The notes under the pieces are model-generated. The model was given only the letters and a program-made list of their open reading frames with translations. It ran no database searches and was not told the origin of the DNA. 25,640 nt of DNA, taken from the IMG/VR virus record IMGVR_UViG_3300037245_000583, positions 1 through 25,640 of that record, one strand, 5' to 3'. This document shows, piece after piece, positions 3,000 through 25,640 of the stretch (position 1 is the stretch's first letter; the number at the start of each line of letters is the position of its first letter). A program made the position numbers and the translations under genes. This DNA comes from a virus.

Positions 3000-5603
3000 T
3001 TACTCTATATACACTTCGCCTTCTGTAGTTATGGACAGCGACCCGGCTTTTGTCTTTCCTGCAGGGAGTCCGGAAGGTAATGCCTCCAGTGCTACTCCCC
3101 CCTCACTCTTTAAACTTTCAAATATTCCGCCTGTTGTTCCATCGTCTGTGACTGAGCCTTGGAGGATTCTAGGCACTTTCGTATCATAAAACACATCAAA
3201 GCCAAAGCCGTAAGAGGCACTAAACACTGTCTGTGCGTTAGCGCCTAGAGAATCCCTTAATTGTAGAGTCAAATTTGAGCCATTATTACTAGGTGTTGAC
3301 TCTAAAGCAAATCTACGGGTTCCGTTATCACGAAAACCAACCCACCCCATATATCCATCGCCCTTTGAAGATAAATGAATAGCTGAGGCTAAAGGGTTTT
3401 GTTCTAATTCTAGAGCGTATTGATTTGTGTCGTTAGTTTGTACCTTTAAGGTATCGCCAAAAGTAGCCCCAGTAGTAGTGGATATGCTTTCAAACTGCCC
3501 ACCTGTTACGCCATCATCTGTAACTGAGCCTTGGAGGATTCGGCCTGTTAAATCAATGTCAGGAACTATCTCTAATTTAGCACCATGCTGATACGAGAAT
3601 ATATTGATAGCATTTGCTCCAACATTGTCATAAACAGCTAGTTTTATATTAGAACCGCTCCCAAATGGACCAGACTCCATTACGAATCTACGAGTTGAGT
3701 CCGCTCTAAACCCTAATATATTTTGGTAACTGTCACCTTTCAAATGATAACCATGTGACGATGGACTTTCTATTAGTACATCACCTCCAAAAGTAGCCCC
3801 AGTAGTAGTGGATATGCTTTCAAACTGCCCACCTGTTACGCCATCATCTGTAACTGAGCCTTGGAGGATTCTAGATGTTGCGTTTATTACCCCACCAAAA
3901 GTAGCAGGGCCATCTTGATTAGATAAACCATCAACTTGTAAGGATGCAGTTGTTAACTTTGCACTTACAAAAGTCTCATCAATTAAATGTATCTCATCAA
4001 CTGCTGATTGGTCTGCTTGTAAAACCAAACCTTGCGTGTCAGTCGCATAAATAAAACCTTGTAGAGTTCCATTAGAATCATAATAACTATCAATAGCCTT
4101 ATGACGAATAGGAGCGTTTGCGTTTATTGGAGCTTGAGCATTTGTAATATTATTTAAGTTCGTAACGCCATTGAAATCAACCTCACTTTCTAAACTCTGA
4201 GCCTCTGTTTGCGCCTTATCTAATTTATCTGTCCAAAGAGTAGTCAGAGCCTCAGTTAGAGTTCCATTGTTAGTGACAGGAGATAAGTCTAGAACTGTAT
4301 CAGTAGTCTGCTGTACTGGGATATTAAAAAAACTTCTATATGCGGCACCTGTGTATAGGCTGAGGGCTGTAGACCCGCCTCCTGACACTTTAGTTACGCT
4401 GACGGTAAGCCTGATCCTATCCCCAATATCTTGATCAAGACTATTAGCTAAGGTATTACTAAGTAGTATTGGCAAAGTGCTATTCCTAGCCATGCTGATA
4501 ACTCCTGATGTGAGTTCAGCTAGAGTGTTCTTGACTGTAGTACCATCAGACTCCATTTGCTCAAACTGAGCTTGCCATAAATATGTCTCGTTAGCAGAGT
4601 CAGTCCTGCACATGAGCTGCATCTCATAGAACCCTGCTTGTATGACTCCCGGTGTGATAAACTCTCCACTTATGAACTTCTTAGTGAAGGAAGTCTTATT
4701 CCCCGAAGTCACATTTAATGTCTGTATCTCCTCAACCACTACGCCCGCGGTACTACCTAATGACAACCACGGAGGGTTAATCGGGTCTATGTCTGCAGTA
4801 AGGAATACCTCCGATGTCACACCCGCAGAAGATCCAGGGCCTTTAGTTTGATTTGTATTGTCCCAAAATAGCTGCAGAGTGTTTGTGAACACTCCTGTTA
4901 GATACTCATACTCTACAAGGCCGGTACCTAGATAGTCAGACTGGGTATGCGCATACACTCTTCTTATTCTAACCAAAGGTGAGTCGCCCGTTAACTCTCC
5001 AGGTGCTCCCGCTTGTGAGCCTATATGCACTTCACAAAAGAAGTCCACTGTACCTGAGTTAAGGGTAAGCGTTGTGTTCTCAATACTAACAGGTAAGCCA
5101 GTTACGCGCTTGTGGCCAAACACTGTAATTAAGTCATCTACTGGAGCGAACACTTCCTCTTGTACATGAACTGTCGAGAATGCGCTCGACTGCATTGCGT
5201 TCTTGAACTCTGCCCATGTAGCCACATTGATAGTGTTAGATTGTAGCCAATAGTTAACTCCTGCCACGCTAGAGTATGTTCTGACTGATCCATCGGTCAT
5301 GGAGATTGACTGGCCTTCAGCAGCAGTCCAAAACTTCCATGAGTCGTCGCCACCGTATGCAACGCTAGACCAATAAGACAGCCTGCCTGCCTGCCCATTG
5401 AAATCTCCTACCGGAGATGCCCCCACTATGTATACGTCATTGTTTGCAGGGCTTGAGATAGTGGATGGGTCATTAACAATCGCTTTCGCTGGGTTGGCTA
5501 CAAGCCTATCCACAGTATTAAAGTTATTGTTAACGTCAGAGCCCCATTCGTCATCTCCTGGGTCCCACCCCCATGCCTGTATCTTACCAAAGTTAGCTGC
5601 CAT
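3000..5603 (-). CDS. Tail fibre / receptor-binding protein with DUF2793-like N-terminus and repeated modules
   Basis: A protein of 867 residues, last of the tail genes. Residues 1-125 resemble the DUF2793 phage tail domain: an N-terminal segment with DDEWGSDVNNNFNTVD, then NNDVYIVG, GQAGRLSYW, a Trp-Lys-Phe-Trp patch and GVNYWL. The middle (about 130-560) is Ser/Thr/Asn rich with beta-strand periodicity. The C-terminal third has three copies of a linker starting RILQGSVTDDG (near residues 578, 688 and 812) separated by two diverged modules that share LGFR or VGFR, TRRF, ES, GSN and GANA blocks. These modules probably form trimeric shaft or binding repeats. The N-terminus should attach to the tail tip, and the C-terminus should meet the host. 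AGGAG precedes the ATG. The end (SITTEGEVYIE) shows no intramolecular chaperone signature that I recognise. Confidence 0.8.
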   Translation of the reverse strand: MAANFGKIQAWGWDPGDDEWGSDVNNNFNTVDRLVANPAKAIVNDPSTISSPANNDVYIVGASPVGDFNGQAGRLSYWSSVAYGGDDSWKFWTAAEGQSISMTDGSVRTYSSVAGVNYWLQSNTINVATWAEFKNAMQSSAFSTVHVQEEVFAPVDDLITVFGHKRVTGLPVSIENTTLTLNSGTVDFFCEVHIGSQAGAPGELTGDSPLVRIRRVYAHTQSDYLGTGLVEYEYLTGVFTNTLQLFWDNTNQTKGPGSSAGVTSEVFLTADIDPINPPWLSLGSTAGVVVEEIQTLNVTSGNKTSFTKKFISGEFITPGVIQAGFYEMQLMCRTDSANETYLWQAQFEQMESDGTTVKNTLAELTSGVISMARNSTLPILLSNTLANSLDQDIGDRIRLTVSVTKVSGGGSTALSLYTGAAYRSFFNIPVQQTTDTVLDLSPVTNNGTLTEALTTLWTDKLDKAQTEAQSLESEVDFNGVTNLNNITNAQAPINANAPIRHKAIDSYYDSNGTLQGFIYATDTQGLVLQADQSAVDEIHLIDETFVSAKLTTASLQVDGLSNQDGPATFGGVINATSRILQGSVTDDGVTGGQFESISTTTGATFGGDVLIESPSSHGYHLKGDSYQNILGFRADSTRRFVMESGPFGSGSNIKLAVYDNVGANAINIFSYQHGAKLEIVPDIDLTGRILQGSVTDDGVTGGQFESISTTTGATFGDTLKVQTNDTNQYALELEQNPLASAIHLSSKGDGYMGWVGFRDNGTRRFALESTPSNNGSNLTLQLRDSLGANAQTVFSASYGFGFDVFYDTKVPRILQGSVTDDGTTGGIFESLKSEGGVALEALPSGLPAGKTKAGSLSITTEGEVYIE
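3112..3168 (-). repeat. Third, diverged copy of the fibre linker repeat
   Basis: This stretch aligns with the last two thirds of the 84-bp repeat and ends in the same sequence (ACTGAGCCTTGGAGGATT on the plus strand), but with several substitutions. It encodes a RILQGSVTDDGTTGGIFES version of the linker near residues 812-831 of the fibre protein. Confidence 0.8.
3457..3540 (-). repeat. 84-bp perfect direct repeat in the fibre gene, copy 2
   Basis: Every base is identical to 3787-3870, 330 bp away. It encodes the linker RILQGSVTDDGVTGG and what follows to ATFG (residues about 688-716). The modules on either side are only loosely similar to each other, so identity over 84 bp, including third codon positions, points to recent duplication or gene conversion. 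Confidence 0.95.
3787..3870 (-). repeat. 84-bp perfect direct repeat in the fibre gene, copy 1
   Basis: This is the partner of 3457-3540 with the same frame and the same encoded linker (residues about 578-606). Together the two copies bracket one module of the C-terminal fibre region. Confidence 0.95.
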
Positions 5604-5674: not shown

Positions 5675-8536
5675 TTAGTTATCCCAGTTGTTAGACCAGT
5701 CTGTGTTCCATCCGTCACCTGGAATGTTATCTCCATAGGACATCACGTATTCATACCTCTGCCAAGAGGTATTGTTGTTGCCTGTGTCTAGCCCTTCGAT
5801 AACTACTCGAACAGTCAGAGGCTCAACGCCGCCATTATCAGATATCATGTCAACACTGCTATAGGTGTAACTCAACCCTGTCGTAGTGTCAGACTTGGCT
5901 TCAGTCTCGCTTCCATCGAAATAGAATAGAACGCGGTATGTGTTTCCATCTGTAGTACCATCTAAGCTTAAGAAGTGTTTAGGCGATTCTGATTTGAAGT
6001 CATCTCCGTGGTTCCGGTGGTTCCAAGTTAGAGAAGCATCCCCTCTCAGCACTGACGGGTCATAGCTACCATTAACCTTCACATTAGTGGGCGTTGGAGG
6101 TAAGAATTGTCGGCTCCCCTCAACTGGGTTCCATGTATTATACTCTACCTCGTCCAGCTCTTGCGTGATTAAGCTGTTGTTTGTGTTGAGCACTTTAAAG
6201 TCCGAACTAGGCCCTATTGGAGGTACTGCACTTATTATAGATGCCCACTGCCTAGTAGTCTGTACTTTTTTGAGGAGCGTGACTTTTGTATCAACGTCAT
6301 GCGCAGCTGGAACAGTGTCGTGACACCCACGGTCTATGAATACAATAGCACTTTGTGTTTTGCTCGATATATTAGTGACTTTTACCATTTCATCGCCTAT
6401 CATGAGCAGGCTGTTTAGTGGTGGGAAGAACCCAAAACCCTGAAGGCTGAAATACGCGTCCTGCTTACCTATTGCATATCTAAGGTCTGCTATGGGAGTA
6501 AACTCAGATTTAGCTCTAACTTCAGCAGACTCAAAAGTTGGCACTTGGAAATGTTTATGCTCTTGGTTAGGGGCAGAGGCTTCTATGCTCACAAAGGGTC
6601 TAAGAGGCATATCATTCTCATTATATGGGTTTAGCCTGTGGGATATCTCCAAATATGAAGATCCTGTAGCTCTTATGAAAGGTGAAGACACTGGGTATGC
6701 AGAAATAGTAGCAAGTAGTGATTCGGTCCTCTTGTAGTATGGCGTTGATGCGTTACCCCAAGTGTCAGTGACTAGAGTTAGGACTAATGTACCTTTTGTT
6801 TGCTCAGACTCAGTTACGCCCAACACTCGGTATTTACTTTGCGGTATTGAATATTCATTAAACCCAACTGTGATTACATCCCCTATCTCCAGTGACCTAA
6901 ATCCACCGTCAATAGGCACTGCGGCGCTATTAGAAGCTACCGTCACTCGCACTCGGGCAGTTCTAGATGTCATAACCTTAGCAGACCTAGCGAGCACTTT
7001 ATCTGCTACACTAGAATCGTTTATGTAGGGCGATTCAATAGTGAAAGCGTCTGCCGACCCACCGCTGTTGTTGCGTGAGTACTTAACGAGCTTTTGGGCA
7101 TCGTCATCAGAATACTGTATGTCTACTGCTTTCGGAGTCTCTTCGTACCTAGATACAGTTAAGTGTGCAAGAGATACAATATCAGAATCTCCTATCACAA
7201 GCCCACTGTCTTGACCTTCGCGCATCAGTTCTATCTTTATGAGTCCTGTATCTCTACTTGTGAACATCACCATATCTGCAGCAGTCGCACAGTTGTCAAA
7301 TATTGTCTTTAGTGAGTCTCCACTAGATGCAAAGTTTACCCAAATGTCTTCGTCGTACAGTATCTGAGCGTTGTCTATGAAATTGTCTGCATCTAAGGAG
7401 TCTTTAGGTAGACCTAATCCCCATTCAGTATTGACCAATATCTCAGCAATAGCAACTATGGGGTTGGCACCTACCAAATCCCCAGGGTAAGCTACTTGAA
7501 TCTCACCGTTAACGTCATCTCGTACAGTAACAGTAGTGTTTATTACCTTCTGAAGGTGGTCTAGGTGCCTATACCCATCAGTGCTAACTATGCCAGTTAC
7601 AGACTTTCTCTCAGCTTTAAAGAAGAAAGATTTGTCATCCCCGTGTTGACCTGACTTAGCAAGTACTCCCACATTCGCACAGGCATACCCTTGATAGTTA
7701 GAAGAGTCTGCATCTCTGAGCTTACTGTCAACTGCGACTTCCCATGAAAGGTTTGAATAGAACATCTTATCAGTGTTCACAGTAGGGGTGTTAGACACTA
7801 CTGGGTCTTGCTCGTATTGGGTGAACGATAATATAGGCTTAGTTGGGAGTATGCCTTCTCCTGGCATGCCATTGGGGAATATTGTGAAATCAATACTCTG
7901 ATCCATCACGCTAGTTGATAGAACCACTGACTTAGATGAGTCATTAACGCCGTCTAGGTCAGCGTCATACCTCTTCTCCCACTCTACATTAACTGCACCG
8001 TACTGCTCGGTCAAGACTGCGGTATGTCGTATGTTCGGGTAGTGGCCATATACACTGGTGTAGTCGAACTGTTTTATGTTTGGGTTGTACTCATACGATA
8101 GCTTAGACCTGCCTAGCTTCTTAGGGGTGTATATTATCCAGTCTTCTCTACGATATGTATAGTTGCCAAGGGGGTCAAGCAAATCACCCCGACTAACGCT
8201 TTTTATTTTACTATATACTTCTGTAACTCGGTCTACCTCTGAAGCGAATACATATAGGCCTGATCGCATCCACATGGGACTATCATTGTAAGTTATGCCG
8301 GACAACTCCGACGCACTAGACTGTCTAACTAAGTTCCCTGGCACTAACTTAGATCCGAAAACCACTGGTATGTCACTCCCTATCACAGCGTTAGACAGAG
8401 GGGCTAGAGAGCTTATCCAGTCCTGTTTTTGTTTAAACACATCCTCGCGCCTCTGCTGTATCTGATCTTCTTCTTCGATAGCCGTTAGCGCTCGGTTGAC
8501 TACTACTGATGCAGCCCATATAAGTAATCCTGACAT
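5675..8536 (-). CDS. Tail tip / host attachment protein (lambda gpJ-like position)
   Basis: A protein of 953 residues, in the gpJ position after the tape measure and gpL-like genes. The N-terminus has a hydrophobic helix (MSGLLIWAASVVVN), then a charged helix, then a segment around IGSDIPVVFGSKLVPGNLV typical of central tail-tip hub proteins. In the middle, ANPIVAIAEILVNTEWGLGLP is the hallmark block of phage tip proteins of this kind (a domain often written NPADVLYDLLTNPxWGLG). The C-terminal 150 residues look like an Fn3-type beta domain (TPTNVKVNGSYD, then YRVLFYFDG). It should cap the tail tube, contact the fibre and help in DNA release. It starts 2 bp after the upstream stop with AAGGTG as ribosome site. 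A terminator follows it. Confidence 0.8.
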   Translation of the reverse strand: MSGLLIWAASVVVNRALTAIEEEDQIQQRREDVFKQKQDWISSLAPLSNAVIGSDIPVVFGSKLVPGNLVRQSSASELSGITYNDSPMWMRSGLYVFASEVDRVTEVYSKIKSVSRGDLLDPLGNYTYRREDWIIYTPKKLGRSKLSYEYNPNIKQFDYTSVYGHYPNIRHTAVLTEQYGAVNVEWEKRYDADLDGVNDSSKSVVLSTSVMDQSIDFTIFPNGMPGEGILPTKPILSFTQYEQDPVVSNTPTVNTDKMFYSNLSWEVAVDSKLRDADSSNYQGYACANVGVLAKSGQHGDDKSFFFKAERKSVTGIVSTDGYRHLDHLQKVINTTVTVRDDVNGEIQVAYPGDLVGANPIVAIAEILVNTEWGLGLPKDSLDADNFIDNAQILYDEDIWVNFASSGDSLKTIFDNCATAADMVMFTSRDTGLIKIELMREGQDSGLVIGDSDIVSLAHLTVSRYEETPKAVDIQYSDDDAQKLVKYSRNNSGGSADAFTIESPYINDSSVADKVLARSAKVMTSRTARVRVTVASNSAAVPIDGGFRSLEIGDVITVGFNEYSIPQSKYRVLGVTESEQTKGTLVLTLVTDTWGNASTPYYKRTESLLATISAYPVSSPFIRATGSSYLEISHRLNPYNENDMPLRPFVSIEASAPNQEHKHFQVPTFESAEVRAKSEFTPIADLRYAIGKQDAYFSLQGFGFFPPLNSLLMIGDEMVKVTNISSKTQSAIVFIDRGCHDTVPAAHDVDTKVTLLKKVQTTRQWASIISAVPPIGPSSDFKVLNTNNSLITQELDEVEYNTWNPVEGSRQFLPPTPTNVKVNGSYDPSVLRGDASLTWNHRNHGDDFKSESPKHFLSLDGTTDGNTYRVLFYFDGSETEAKSDTTTGLSYTYSSVDMISDNGGVEPLTVRVVIEGLDTGNNNTSWQRYEYVMSYGDNIPGDGWNTDWSNNWDN

Positions 8537-22262: not shown

Positions 22263-22552
22263 TACATGCCTCCTGTAGGACTAACCAAAATTGGTTTCTT
22301 AAAATAGTTTTTGTAGTGCTCTAGCATAGCTGATATGTTTGCTTCTGCTCCTACTTCAGATACATCCAAATATGCGCCTATCAATCGAGATAGTAGGTCC
22401 CTATTGTAGACAAAGGCACCTGTCTCGGTGTCAACTCCTATTAAAGCATCATCGAACATGTCAGGCAGTCTTACTGGCTTGGCATATACATTTTGCATTT
22501 TCAATTTACTGGAAGCTATTTTCTTAGCTCTGTTTTCGTCCCATTCTAACAT
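22262..22552 (-). CDS. Small hypothetical protein of the replication operon
   Basis: A protein of 96 residues from the ATG at 22552, which overlaps the primase stop (TAATG) and has AAGGAG upstream; a GTG at 22561 would add three residues. It begins MLEWDENRAKKI, with a basic first third, then GVDTETGAFVYNRDLLSRLIGAYLD in the middle and a final helix with KNYFKKPIL. No domain is recognised. Coupled expression with the primase-helicase suggests a replication accessory role, which is inference only. Confidence 0.7.
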   Translation of the reverse strand: MLEWDENRAKKIASSKLKMQNVYAKPVRLPDMFDDALIGVDTETGAFVYNRDLLSRLIGAYLDVSEVGAEANISAMLEHYKNYFKKPILVSPTGGM

Positions 22553-24807
22553 TAGAAACACTCCTTCACACTAAGTAGAGCTTCTTTGTTATCTAAGTCC
22601 TGTGATTTCTTATAGAACTTGGGGAAGTCCATGAGCATAGCCATGTGGTCAATAGCATAATATCTAAATAGTCCATATCTACCGAATTGTTTAGGTGCCT
22701 CTGATCTATTTAAGAAGGCTATTGACTTAAGCAAGCCATTCACTCTAGTCCTGTCCTTTTGAGGTAGTTGAGACCACTTTATCCCCAGCACTTGCTCACT
22801 TATCTCTTTAGATGTGACATTCTCTCGCACCATTAGTTCTTCGGACATATCCCCTCCCTCGTAGAAGTTCTTAGGGATCGGTGTGGATATATAGTTAATT
22901 ATCTCAGGTAGATCTGGATCTTCATAAGTGCGAGATGACCGCATCTCAGCGACTAATGCTTCTGACTCTCTGCTCAAGTACAATTTATAGCACATGTCTT
23001 TATTATGGTTGTGCATCACCTCTGCCCAAATCTGATCCACTACTTTTTTGAGCCCTTTAATGTCAATATCACCTTGCCCCTGCCTAATAGGTAAGTACCG
23101 TCTGTTACCGGAAGAGTCTTTCAAGTATTCTGAGTCATTTGTCGTGCCCATAAAGATACTCGACCTCTTGACATCAATTATCTTCTTCTCATAAGGTGGG
23201 CGGTAGCTGTCTTCAGACCTTGTGATGACAGCTTTGAGTTTGTTCACATCAGCGAACTTAAGTCCGGACATCTCACACATCTCAATGAACCAGTATCTAG
23301 ACAGTTTTGCCAATGCATCTTTACCTTCTAGAGTAGTCTCATCTGAAGTGAAGTGACCCTTAGCTAGTACTTCTAATAGTGTTGACTTACCTGTGCCTTG
23401 AGGACCTTCAATGATGGTCACATAGTCAAACTTACATCCTGGGTAGATAGCTCTAGTAACTGCAGCGTCTAGGACCAACCGACCTGCTTCTCTATAGTAA
23501 GCATTATCTTCAGTACCGAGAAAATCAATAAGCCAAGTGTCTGCTCTCTCTACCCCATCCCATGTACCTTGCATATCTTCCAAGTAATCTACTACTGGGC
23601 TATAACTATTATCAATGGCACACAGATTGAATATTGTCTCGATAACATCTAATGAGAAGTTGACCTTGTATGTCTCATTAATGTATCTGCGCAGTGCTGC
23701 GAAGTCATCTCTCACTGGCTGCCAAACAGTTATGTCACGCTTACGCCATGGGATCTCCCCTCTCATCTCGTGTTTATGACCCAACTCATTATAGGCCGGA
23801 GTGGGCAGCTTCTCATCGAACTTAAGTATCAGCTCTAGATTGGACTCAATCTTCATGAGTTTCTCAGGCTCTCCATTCTCACCCTCGGGAGCATACACTA
23901 GTCTCTCCCTCCAATTTTCTTGATCCGGTGCCGGCCTGATCCAGCCGCCTTCTTTGGCTAGTATAATAAGGGTACCAAATGTGACAGGGTTGCCTTGACC
24001 GTTCTTGTCCATCCTATTATAGGTAGCTTCCATGTGAGCATCATCAGCAATTTTATCCGGATTCTCTGCGCGCTTGGACCATGCACTAAACATCTCAAGA
24101 CCTCTACCACCGAAGGTATGGTTAAGGCACATGGCCACTTTAACCCAAGTCTCGTTATCACAATCAGGGCTAATGAAATTAAGCATCTCCTCTGCCTGCA
24201 CCCAGTCGTCTTCAGACCCAGCAGCAAACCAAGACTCTACTAGCTCAGGAGCATCTTTACTCTTTTCATCCTCGGTTCCTGGGATCTTTGTGTATTTAGT
24301 TAGGCGGTCTGACCCTGTGATTATGTCCTCCGTCCAAGTAAGAAACTGAGAATATTGGTATGTCTCCACTCCTCCTCGGTTCCATCGTATTGCTTTACCT
24401 TTGAAAAATCCGTGTACTCCTGTCCTACTAGGAGACATCTCCCAATAGCCAGGGTTGAGCTCCATGATAGACTTGCACCTGTCATCGAACACAGGCTCTC
24501 CATCTTTATATGTGACACATCCATCTAAATCTACTGCAACTATATCCCCATCGCCAGGGAGCATACAGTACCCAATACCTTCATAACCACCCTTCTCCCA
24601 AAGCTCAACTGCCTTGTCATAGGTAACTAATTTACGCCTATCCTCTTCATTGCCCTGTACCCCTAATCTAGGAGATCCATCCACTGCGTAGTAGGGCAAC
24701 TTAGCAGGCTTTTTACCTGCACCTTTATCTACTAATTTCCACATTATCCAGTGAGGGTTGTTGAGCAATTCATGAGGTATTTCGTCTTTTTGCATGCCGT
24801 AAAACAT
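22552..24807 (-). CDS. Primase-helicase with prim-pol-like, PriCT-2 and VirE-type ATPase domains
   Basis: A protein of 751 residues. The N-terminal part (about 10-170) resembles archaeo-eukaryotic prim-pol domains, with AVDLDG at 91-96 (metal-binding DxD) and SRTGVHGFF at 127-135 (motif II His132). A PriCT-2-like segment spans about 200-290. The C-terminal VirE/D5-type P-loop ATPase has Walker A EGPQGTGKST (467-476), Walker B WFIEMCEM (506-513), a sensor GTTND (554-558) and GNRRY (567-571). Such fusions prime and unwind phage DNA. No DNA polymerase gene is in the window. AAGGACAG precedes the ATG. The gene is transcribed away from a noncoding region with repeats that may hold the origin. Confidence 0.9.
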   Translation of the reverse strand: MFYGMQKDEIPHELLNNPHWIMWKLVDKGAGKKPAKLPYYAVDGSPRLGVQGNEEDRRKLVTYDKAVELWEKGGYEGIGYCMLPGDGDIVAVDLDGCVTYKDGEPVFDDRCKSIMELNPGYWEMSPSRTGVHGFFKGKAIRWNRGGVETYQYSQFLTWTEDIITGSDRLTKYTKIPGTEDEKSKDAPELVESWFAAGSEDDWVQAEEMLNFISPDCDNETWVKVAMCLNHTFGGRGLEMFSAWSKRAENPDKIADDAHMEATYNRMDKNGQGNPVTFGTLIILAKEGGWIRPAPDQENWRERLVYAPEGENGEPEKLMKIESNLELILKFDEKLPTPAYNELGHKHEMRGEIPWRKRDITVWQPVRDDFAALRRYINETYKVNFSLDVIETIFNLCAIDNSYSPVVDYLEDMQGTWDGVERADTWLIDFLGTEDNAYYREAGRLVLDAAVTRAIYPGCKFDYVTIIEGPQGTGKSTLLEVLAKGHFTSDETTLEGKDALAKLSRYWFIEMCEMSGLKFADVNKLKAVITRSEDSYRPPYEKKIIDVKRSSIFMGTTNDSEYLKDSSGNRRYLPIRQGQGDIDIKGLKKVVDQIWAEVMHNHNKDMCYKLYLSRESEALVAEMRSSRTYEDPDLPEIINYISTPIPKNFYEGGDMSEELMVRENVTSKEISEQVLGIKWSQLPQKDRTRVNGLLKSIAFLNRSEAPKQFGRYGLFRYYAIDHMAMLMDFPKFYKKSQDLDNKEALLSVKECF

Positions 24808-24872
24808 ATTCTGTCCTTATTGTTGGTTTAGTTCTGAAATAAAAGATACATCTAAATAGTTTATAAAACAAG

Positions 24873-25174
24873 TGTAATTTTGTAAATATTGTAATAACCT
24901 GCGTTTTTCTATTACCGCTTTATTTTTAGATACAGATCCGTACACATTCCGTTAGGACTGTAACCCCCCATATCTTATGAAGTTACCAGGGGTCAAAATA
25001 CATAATTACGATTTTCACACACTTCTCTATAAAGGGGTAATCCCCCTGCCCCTGCCCCCTCTCTATATAATATAAAAATACCCTTTAAATGGTTATTTGT
25101 AACATTGTAAGAAAGCCCACGAGACCTTATAGAATAAGGGCTAAACAGATTACGAGCACTGTAACACGCTGTAA
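24873..25174 (+). repeat. Cluster of eight TGTAA direct repeats
   Basis: TGTAA begins at 24873, 24881, 24890, 24959, 25098, 25106, 25160 and 25170, always on the plus strand. Three sets are spaced 8 to 10 bp, about one helical turn. The copies at 25098, 25160 and 25170 extend to TGTAACA. No TTACA occurs on the same strand in this gap, so the bias is real. They resemble iterons or operator half-sites. Confidence 0.55.
25105..25133 (+). promoter_or_regulatory. Weak candidate promoter for the HNH gene
   Basis: TTGTAA (25105-25110) is 17 bases from TATAGA (25128-25133), each a four-of-six match. It is the best plus-strand candidate in the gap, 90 bp before the HNH start, and its -35 contains one of the TGTAA repeats. 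A small hairpin (CCTTAT-AGA-ATAAGG) overlaps the -10 region. Confidence 0.3.
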
Positions 25175-25222
25175 CAAGGGTTTTTTGACTATATTTCCTA
25201 CTAAAACCAAAGGAGAACGAAC

Positions 25223-25576
25223 ATGGCAAAATCTATGAGGGTTCACAAAACACCCCCTACCCGTCTGAAGTCTCACGCTAAGGCAGTGGCTAGAAAAACA
25301 GAACAAAAAAGAAGTAATCAAAAAAGTAAAGTATACAATCACGACTGGAGAAGTCTTCGAGCGCACTTCCTGGCACTCAACCCGACTTGCAAACTTTGTG
25401 GTGCTATGGCTGTCCATGCCGATCACATAAAAACTGCTAAGGAATTTCCGGAGCTTCGTCTGTCGATCTCAAACCTCCAGCCACTTTGCCACTCTTGCCA
25501 CTCGAGGAAGACTGCCAAGGAAGATGGAGGGTTCGGAAACGCCAAAAAAGTCCCATTTAGTCATTTAGCTAAATAA
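25223..25576 (+). CDS. HNH endonuclease
   Basis: A protein of 117 residues. A basic N-terminus (1-38) precedes a compact HNH fold: CKLCG (Cys56, Cys59), ADHI (Asp67-His68), SISNLQPLC (Asn84) and CHSCHSRKT (Cys89, Cys92, His93). The two CxxC pairs hold a structural zinc and His68, Asn84 and His93 form the active site. HNH proteins of this size are frequent next to terminase genes in cos phages such as HK97, where they help the terminase cut DNA ends. No terminase is seen in the window, so it is probably just downstream. The start has AAAGGAG seven bases upstream. It is divergent from the replication genes. Confidence 0.92.
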   Translation: MAKSMRVHKTPPTRLKSHAKAVARKTEQKRSNQKSKVYNHDWRSLRAHFLALNPTCKLCGAMAVHADHIKTAKEFPELRLSISNLQPLCHSCHSRKTAKEDGGFGNAKKVPFSHLAK

Positions 25577-25583
25577 CGAAATG

Positions 25584-25604
25584 TTAACCAAACGGTTAAT
25601 TTTT
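25584..25604 (+). terminator. Possible weak hairpin terminator after the HNH gene
   Basis: TTAACC, loop AAAC, GGTTAA and then TTTTT follow the HNH stop by 7 bp. The stem is only 6 bp and AT-rich, so termination would be weak. It could equally be a small operator-type palindrome. Nothing else is seen between here and the end of the window. Confidence 0.35.
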
Positions 25605-25640
25605 GATAGGGCGGATTGTTCGACATCGCGTAAATTTCAC

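Follow-up and report, generated by a model that had tools for sequence, protein, structure and literature searches.

A one-strand array of TGTAA repeats beside a VapE-type primase-helicase gene is a probable phage replication origin

Introduction

For almost every phage represented only in metagenomes, the replication origin is unknown. The linear virus record IMGVR_UViG_3300037245_000583 of IMG/VR (25,640 bp, analysed over its full length and hereafter called the window) poses this problem at one particular locus. A 415-bp gap (24808-25222) separates its primase-helicase gene, on the minus strand, from a divergent HNH endonuclease gene on the plus strand, and an earlier note on this DNA had pointed to a cluster of TGTAA repeats in the gap as iterons of a replication origin or as an operator array. 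What are these repeats for, and which protein would read them?

Results

A TGTAA array in the largest gene-free gap

According to the ORF list, the gap is indeed the largest gene-free stretch of the window, and we counted on its plus strand all eight TGTAA copies that had been reported (starting at 24873, 24881, 24890, 24959, 25098, 25106, 25160 and 25170); its minus strand has none. The start-to-start distances agree with the claimed group spacings of 8, 9, 8 and 10 bp. The excess over an expectation of about one copy was likewise borne out, since dinucleotide-preserving shuffles gave a mean of 0.91 per 415-bp gap and 0 of 3000 reached eight. The features of the locus are collected in Table 1.

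Table 1. Features of the primase-helicase/HNH region of the window.
Feature	Position	Strand	Remarks
Primase-helicase, PriCT_2 and VapE-like domain, proposed initiator	22552..24807	-	PF05272 E 9e-70, PF08707 E 4e-11
Winged-helix region, about residues 661-718, proposed iteron-binding domain	22654..22827	-	predicted model
Second AT-rich stretch, promoter or second unwinding element?	24839..24868	.	between primase start and left iterons
Left iteron group, three TGTAA (24873, 24881, 24890; spacing 8, 9 bp)	24873..24894	+	66 bp upstream of primase-helicase start
Single iteron ACTGTAAC	24959..24964	+	
C-rich tract CCCCCTGCCCCTGCCCCC	25042..25059	+	borders AT-rich stretch; L003 has CCCCCTCTCTCTATACTATA at same place
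Putative DNA unwinding element, AT-rich	25061..25090	.	between left and right iteron groups
Right iteron pair 1, TGTAACATTGTAA, spacing 8 bp	25098..25110	+	
Right iteron pair 2, TGTAACACGCTGTAAC, spacing 10 bp	25160..25175	+	last copy 53 bp upstream of HNH ATG
HNH endonuclease gene, last before contig end	25223..25576	+	PF01844, phrog_144
Right record end, probable cos side	25618..25640	.	same final base as L004, ...GTTCGRCATCGCGTAAATYTCAC

Could the repeats have clustered by chance in an AT-rich gap? The value most favourable to this comes from a stricter control, in which both strands were pooled and any 5-mer was admitted (P = 0.017). In contrast, the motif on one strand has P < 1/3000; any 5-mer of at least three different letters attained eight or more copies on a given strand in 1 of 3000 shuffles, and in the other 415-bp stretches of the window no such 5-mer exceeds six copies. 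The array is real, though less dense than some iteron arrays, and it is not significant at the 6-mer level. Its sixth base varies, with TGTAAC four times, TGTAAT twice, and TGTAAA and TGTAAG once each.

The repeats fall into two groups (24873-24964 and 25098-25175) that flank the AT-rich stretch 25061-25090, which by nearest-neighbour energy is the second-least-stable 30 bp of the window; the third-least-stable is the second AT-rich stretch of Table 1. Direct repeats above chance, a proposed initiator gene next to them and a putative AT-rich unwinding region are the general features of iteron-type origins, and all of them occur here. Promoter and terminator scans returned nothing exceeding chance, the one sigma-70-like match (minus strand, 24886-24858) being weak and not above chance. 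GC skew shows no helpful switch; the genes of the window are nearly all on the minus strand.

All copies lie on the sense strand of the HNH gene, as might be expected of repeats that act in RNA, within a structured leader of the HNH transcript. Yet the RNA of the gap folds no better than its shuffles (z -0.42), five copies are > 110 bp away from the HNH start, and the left group sits beside the oppositely directed primase gene; we regard a function in RNA as extremely improbable.

Conservation in two related phages

The collections yielded only two close relatives, L003 and L004. In L003 the primase is 67% and the HNH protein 82% identical to that of the window; in L004 the HNH protein (79%) and the portal (87%) are similarly close, but the primase-helicase is only about 40% identical. 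When viral and genome contigs were searched with the whole primase, either as the window sequence or as a two-member alignment, only L003 was recovered, and no DNA similarity between the window and named phages was found.

Conservation of the repeats in related phages had been proposed in the earlier note as a check, and the array is kept in L003, with its spacing intact and its core drifted. When the two gaps are anchored at the HNH start codon, the right-hand copies of L003 reproduce the spacing of the window (pairs of 8 and 10 bp, 54 bp between the pairs, 53 bp to the ATG). The counterpart of pair 1 is found at 5876/5884 (TGTTATAATGTTA, 8-bp spacing) and that of pair 2 at 5938/5948 (TGTCAC....TGTTAT, 10-bp spacing). 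These copies read TGTTA, TGTTA, TGTCA and TGTTA, as against four TGTAA in the window, so that the TGT_A bases are identical at 16 of 16 positions whereas the remaining 115 positions are 44% identical. None of the four copies has kept the fourth base, a pattern to be expected of sites read by a single protein whose preference has shifted. Positional conservation against so diverged a background also argues against chance clustering, which we consider very improbable.

In place of the left group, L003 has TGTTA / TGTGT / TGTAA, and ACTGTAAC is also present in L003, at 5700-5707. Overall, the plus strand of the L003 gap holds nine TGTNA (six of them TGTTA) versus 2.15 expected. On the plus strand of the L004 gap, GTGTAAT, a motif chosen post hoc, occurs four times versus 0.07 expected, with two copies in tandem at 11 bp, and the excess of TGTWA is weak (P = 0.18). 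A genome-wide scan for close-spaced TGTNA pairs in the three relatives used a pattern too loose to be informative. The low-stability stretch lies at the same relative place in the window, L003 and L004, where it adjoins a right-hand pair, and it is the least stable 30 bp both of the L003 sequence examined and of the whole L086/L004 contig. Judged from these sequence patterns, the TGTAA copies are almost certainly protein-binding repeats.

In L004, positions 3295-5514 encode a different primase-helicase (about 40% to window 22552-24807) beside a largely different gap, while the head genes and the HNH gene are 79-87% identical. This looks like an exchange of the replication module.

The neighbouring primase-helicase

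Adjoining the array is a VapE/D5-type helicase gene whose product ends in a predicted winged helix. The protein is related by sequence to PDB entries 7pds and 7ola (PriRep1; the structure names are the depositors'), which we take to be of the SaPI5 type. The link of PriRep1 to SaPI5 is supported by PMC7581432. When the C-terminal 160 residues were modelled with 37 relatives, a winged helix was predicted (pLDDT 84), the best solved match of which is PriRep1-dsDNA, 7pds (Foldseek E 1.5e-4, Z 10.3). Most other structural matches are general winged-helix proteins with lower scores, and a profile comparison of the region with the C-terminal part of PriRep1 gave E 2.8e-13.

Among VapE proteins, residues 666-667 and 705-716 (numbered as in the window protein), which belong to the first part of the winged helix and to its wing, vary with the NN pair of the TGTNNC repeats described below, above the level of shuffles that leave shared ancestry uncontrolled. 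We treat this covariation of winged-helix residues with the variable iteron bases as only a lead.

Arrays at other VapE-type helicase loci

An alignment of eleven VapE-type proteins served to fetch 160 further loci, which gave a survey set of 128 distinct loci with a complete gene end; at each, the 350 bp after the stop codon were scanned. An array was called when, with one NN choice per locus, at least four copies of TGTNNC were present at P < 0.01. Such arrays were found in the 350 bp after the gene at 64 of 128 loci, in the 350 bp before it at 0 of 124 and in a stretch inside it at 0 of 129, fractions that are not population estimates because conserved helicase peptides were used to choose the loci (L101-L274), which are weighted towards Firmicutes and partly redundant. 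Motif-free calls placed arrays similarly (79/128 after, 4/124 before and 1/129 inside the gene), and among all patterns of this shape TGTNNC came out far ahead, with at least five copies at 52 loci versus 20 for the next. The NN pair is usually TC, but AA, CA, TG, CC, TT, TA, GA, AT and AC also occur. TGTAAC, the type of the window, is present in 9-12 copies after the VapE gene in L118, L135, L166, L257 and L265; TGTTTAC directly follows the helicase gene in L247 and L273. The named phages CL31, GIW2016, Listeria LWP01 and Acutalibacter Fontainebleau show the same pattern. TGT-type iterons beside VapE-type helicase genes thus recur in many other phages, and TGTNNC with a lineage-specific NN is a possible general origin grammar of VapE phages and satellites.

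The window shares the repeat type, with eight TGTAA of which four are TGTAAC, and the spacing, since same-strand modes in the VapE-locus arrays are 8, 12 and 9 bp and the window has 8, 9, 8 and 10. It is sparser than these arrays typically are, and its sixth base is not constant, only four of the eight copies having their typical C. Arrays at VapE loci use both strands (62/62 loci), frequently as a pair, an AT-rich stretch of ~100 bp and then an opposite copy (24/57), whereas the copies of the window are on the plus strand (8/8). Nor is there an array in the 330 bp 3' of the window primase; the helicase gene abuts the next gene and so leaves no space for one behind it.

As a separate observation, the VapE-type primase gene of Rhodobacter phage RcCWillis is followed by 976 bp without annotation (L288, 3268-4243) that contain GGCCGA eight times, possibly an origin of a different motif type.

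Comparison with named systems

The experimentally backed relative is the origin of Streptococcus thermophilus phage Sfi21 (NC_000872, 34487-34784), a 302-bp gap annotated as origin of replication and phage-inhibitory sequence. Like the gap of the window, it is noncoding, adjoins a D5/VapE-type primase gene and has GTAAC-core repeats (AGTAAC nine times, GTAAC eleven times) around an AT-rich centre. It differs in that AGTAAC is on both strands and 3' of the gene, and in having a Pox_D5-type rather than a VapE helicase.

Origins of phage-inducible chromosomal islands (PICI) lie immediately 3' of the gene for the initiator and have two iteron sets, one on either side of an AT-rich region (PMC6092414). 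The window resembles these PICI/SaPI Pri-Rep origins (PriRep1, 7pds, 7ola; PMC6092414) in its related primase-helicase, C-terminal domain included, and in the short iterons in two groups around an AT-rich stretch. However, its array is 5' of the gene rather than directly 3', its copies have one orientation, and the DNA is that of a phage, with genes for head and tail, instead of a satellite. For SaPI Rep and SCCmec Cch2, binding to short iterons, 5 nt long for Cch2, is reported to go through the C-terminal domain (PMC7581432). The putative Cch2 origin shares with the window the broad helicase class, 5-nt direct-repeat iterons and binding by the C-terminal domain (PMC7581432; for the window, binding would be through the predicted winged helix), but its iteron is AAGTG, in three copies 3' of the gene.

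Among VapE modules of firmicute prophages and phages (L135, L257, L118, L166 and L265; Corynebacterium phage CL31; Paenibacillus phage GIW2016), likeness extends to TGTNNC repeats with an AT-rich centre, to TGTAAC itself in the five L loci and to pairs 8-9 bp apart; these arrays differ in lying directly after the helicase gene, in both orientations and with 9-12 copies.

The best named match to the window helicase by score is that of Croceibacter phage P2559Y, whose gene also abuts the next. Its gap at 26621-27339 has no array. About fifteen ATTGTTTAC repeats, unannotated, with 9-bp pairs and on both strands, are found in P2559Y (L290) at 42739-43153 and 1-239, adjoining the terminase small subunit gene. 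This phage and the window are therefore alike in having a VapE helicase gene without a gap behind it and, in parallel, an array elsewhere: TGTTTAC in 9-bp pairs beside terminase genes in P2559Y, TGTAA at the HNH/cos-end side in the window. They differ in motif (TGTTTAC), orientation (both) and copy number (about 15).

The HNH gene and the contig end

The window and L004 contigs (L004, 6407-6429) finish on the identical base of identical sequence, and L003 ends at 6405, about 24 bases earlier; all three ends lie about 60-100 bp past the HNH stop codon. When CATCGCGTAAATYTCAC from the contig end was searched in all viral contigs, the only true match was L086/L004; five other matches were discarded, as they fall within the coding region of an unrelated phage. 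From this coincidence of ends, the shared contig end is probably a genuine terminus of the DNA (cos), which would make HNH the final gene. We recognised no gene for a large terminase in the window; such a gene may be situated past the left end, which is incomplete. Imperfect inverted repeats follow the HNH gene at 25554-25605 (ATTTAGCTAAAT, GTTAACCAAACGGTTAAT) and are kept in L003 and L004 as TTAACCATATGGTTAA; they are possibly a terminator or part of the end structure.

An HNH gene that is the last before an end common, to the base, to the window and L004 raises the question of whether the TGTAA copies form a packaging site, bound near cos by the small terminase or the HNH protein. There is precedent in HK97, where HNH proteins help to cleave cos (PMC11331095). 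However, the small terminase of HK97 needs only 15 bp, located 15-29 bp from the cut (PMC11331095), whereas in the window about 470-770 bp, including the HNH gene, separate the copies from the contig end, where a site of the HK97 type would be within tens of bp of the cut. Moreover, when HNH genes of other phages were examined, such an array was present in 0 of 70 distinct upstream stretches of 415 bp. Given the distance and these control loci, we rejected a packaging role as a most unlikely one.

An operator array without a replication role?

A phage or host regulator might instead use the repeats solely to control the divergent primase and HNH operons. The array does lie between these operons, its outer groups being 66 and 49-53 bp from the start codons, and head-to-tail half-sites on the same strand, as seen here, are typical of OmpR/PhoB-type regulators. 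Sites of that type keep a spacing of about 10-11 bp, a constant one-turn distance that contrasts with the 8, 9, 8 and 10 bp of the window. Furthermore, the window has no regulator gene next to the array, consensus promoters occur no more often than by chance, and the same core recurs in arrays that follow VapE genes in other phages, at places lacking a divergent promoter. We therefore think it unlikely that the repeats are operators and nothing else. An operator function alongside an origin role is plausible because the left group is just upstream of the helicase gene.

Discussion

The repeats are, in our assessment, probably iterons of a VapE/PriRep-type replication origin, with the primase-helicase as their binder. 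This reading, the first of the two offered by the earlier note, gained good support from the conservation in L003, from the AT-rich stretch in the three relatives and, above all, from the survey of VapE loci together with the GTAAC-core repeats of Sfi21. We infer binding, melting, helicase loading and origin activity from the array and its conservation, the low stability, homology and the association with VapE genes. The VapE-type primase-helicase made from the neighbouring gene would bind TGTAA(C/T) through its C-terminal winged helix, assemble on the two site groups flanking 25061-25090 and melt this AT-rich stretch, then load itself as the helicase and prime synthesis. Initiators often repress their own gene. 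Binding to the left group would also repress the primase-helicase gene, and such autoregulation is probable because that group is just upstream of it.

The window departs from VapE loci in two respects: its array lies on the 5' side of the helicase gene, close to what is likely the cos end, and has a single orientation. Because it has neither the 3' position nor the mixed orientation, sequence comparison suggests that the array is most likely a variant working like a VapE/PriRep-type origin, not an ordinary member of the class. A wider proposal, which we put forward tentatively as possible rather than probable, is that VapE phage helicases share an iteron grammar of TGT, two lineage-specific bases and C, set by the winged helix; that here, and in parallel in P2559Y, the origin has left its place behind the helicase gene for the packaging end; and that the one-direction iterons of the window may make initiation one-directional.

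If VapE helicases mark origins with TGTNNC arrays, then in a large class of phages and satellites the sequence would allow origins and initiator specificity to be predicted, and the relation between the two variable iteron bases and the winged-helix residues, if true, would be a directly testable recognition code. To this the window would add that such an origin can be relocated away from its place 3' of the helicase gene, and that the iteron core can drift in step across all copies.
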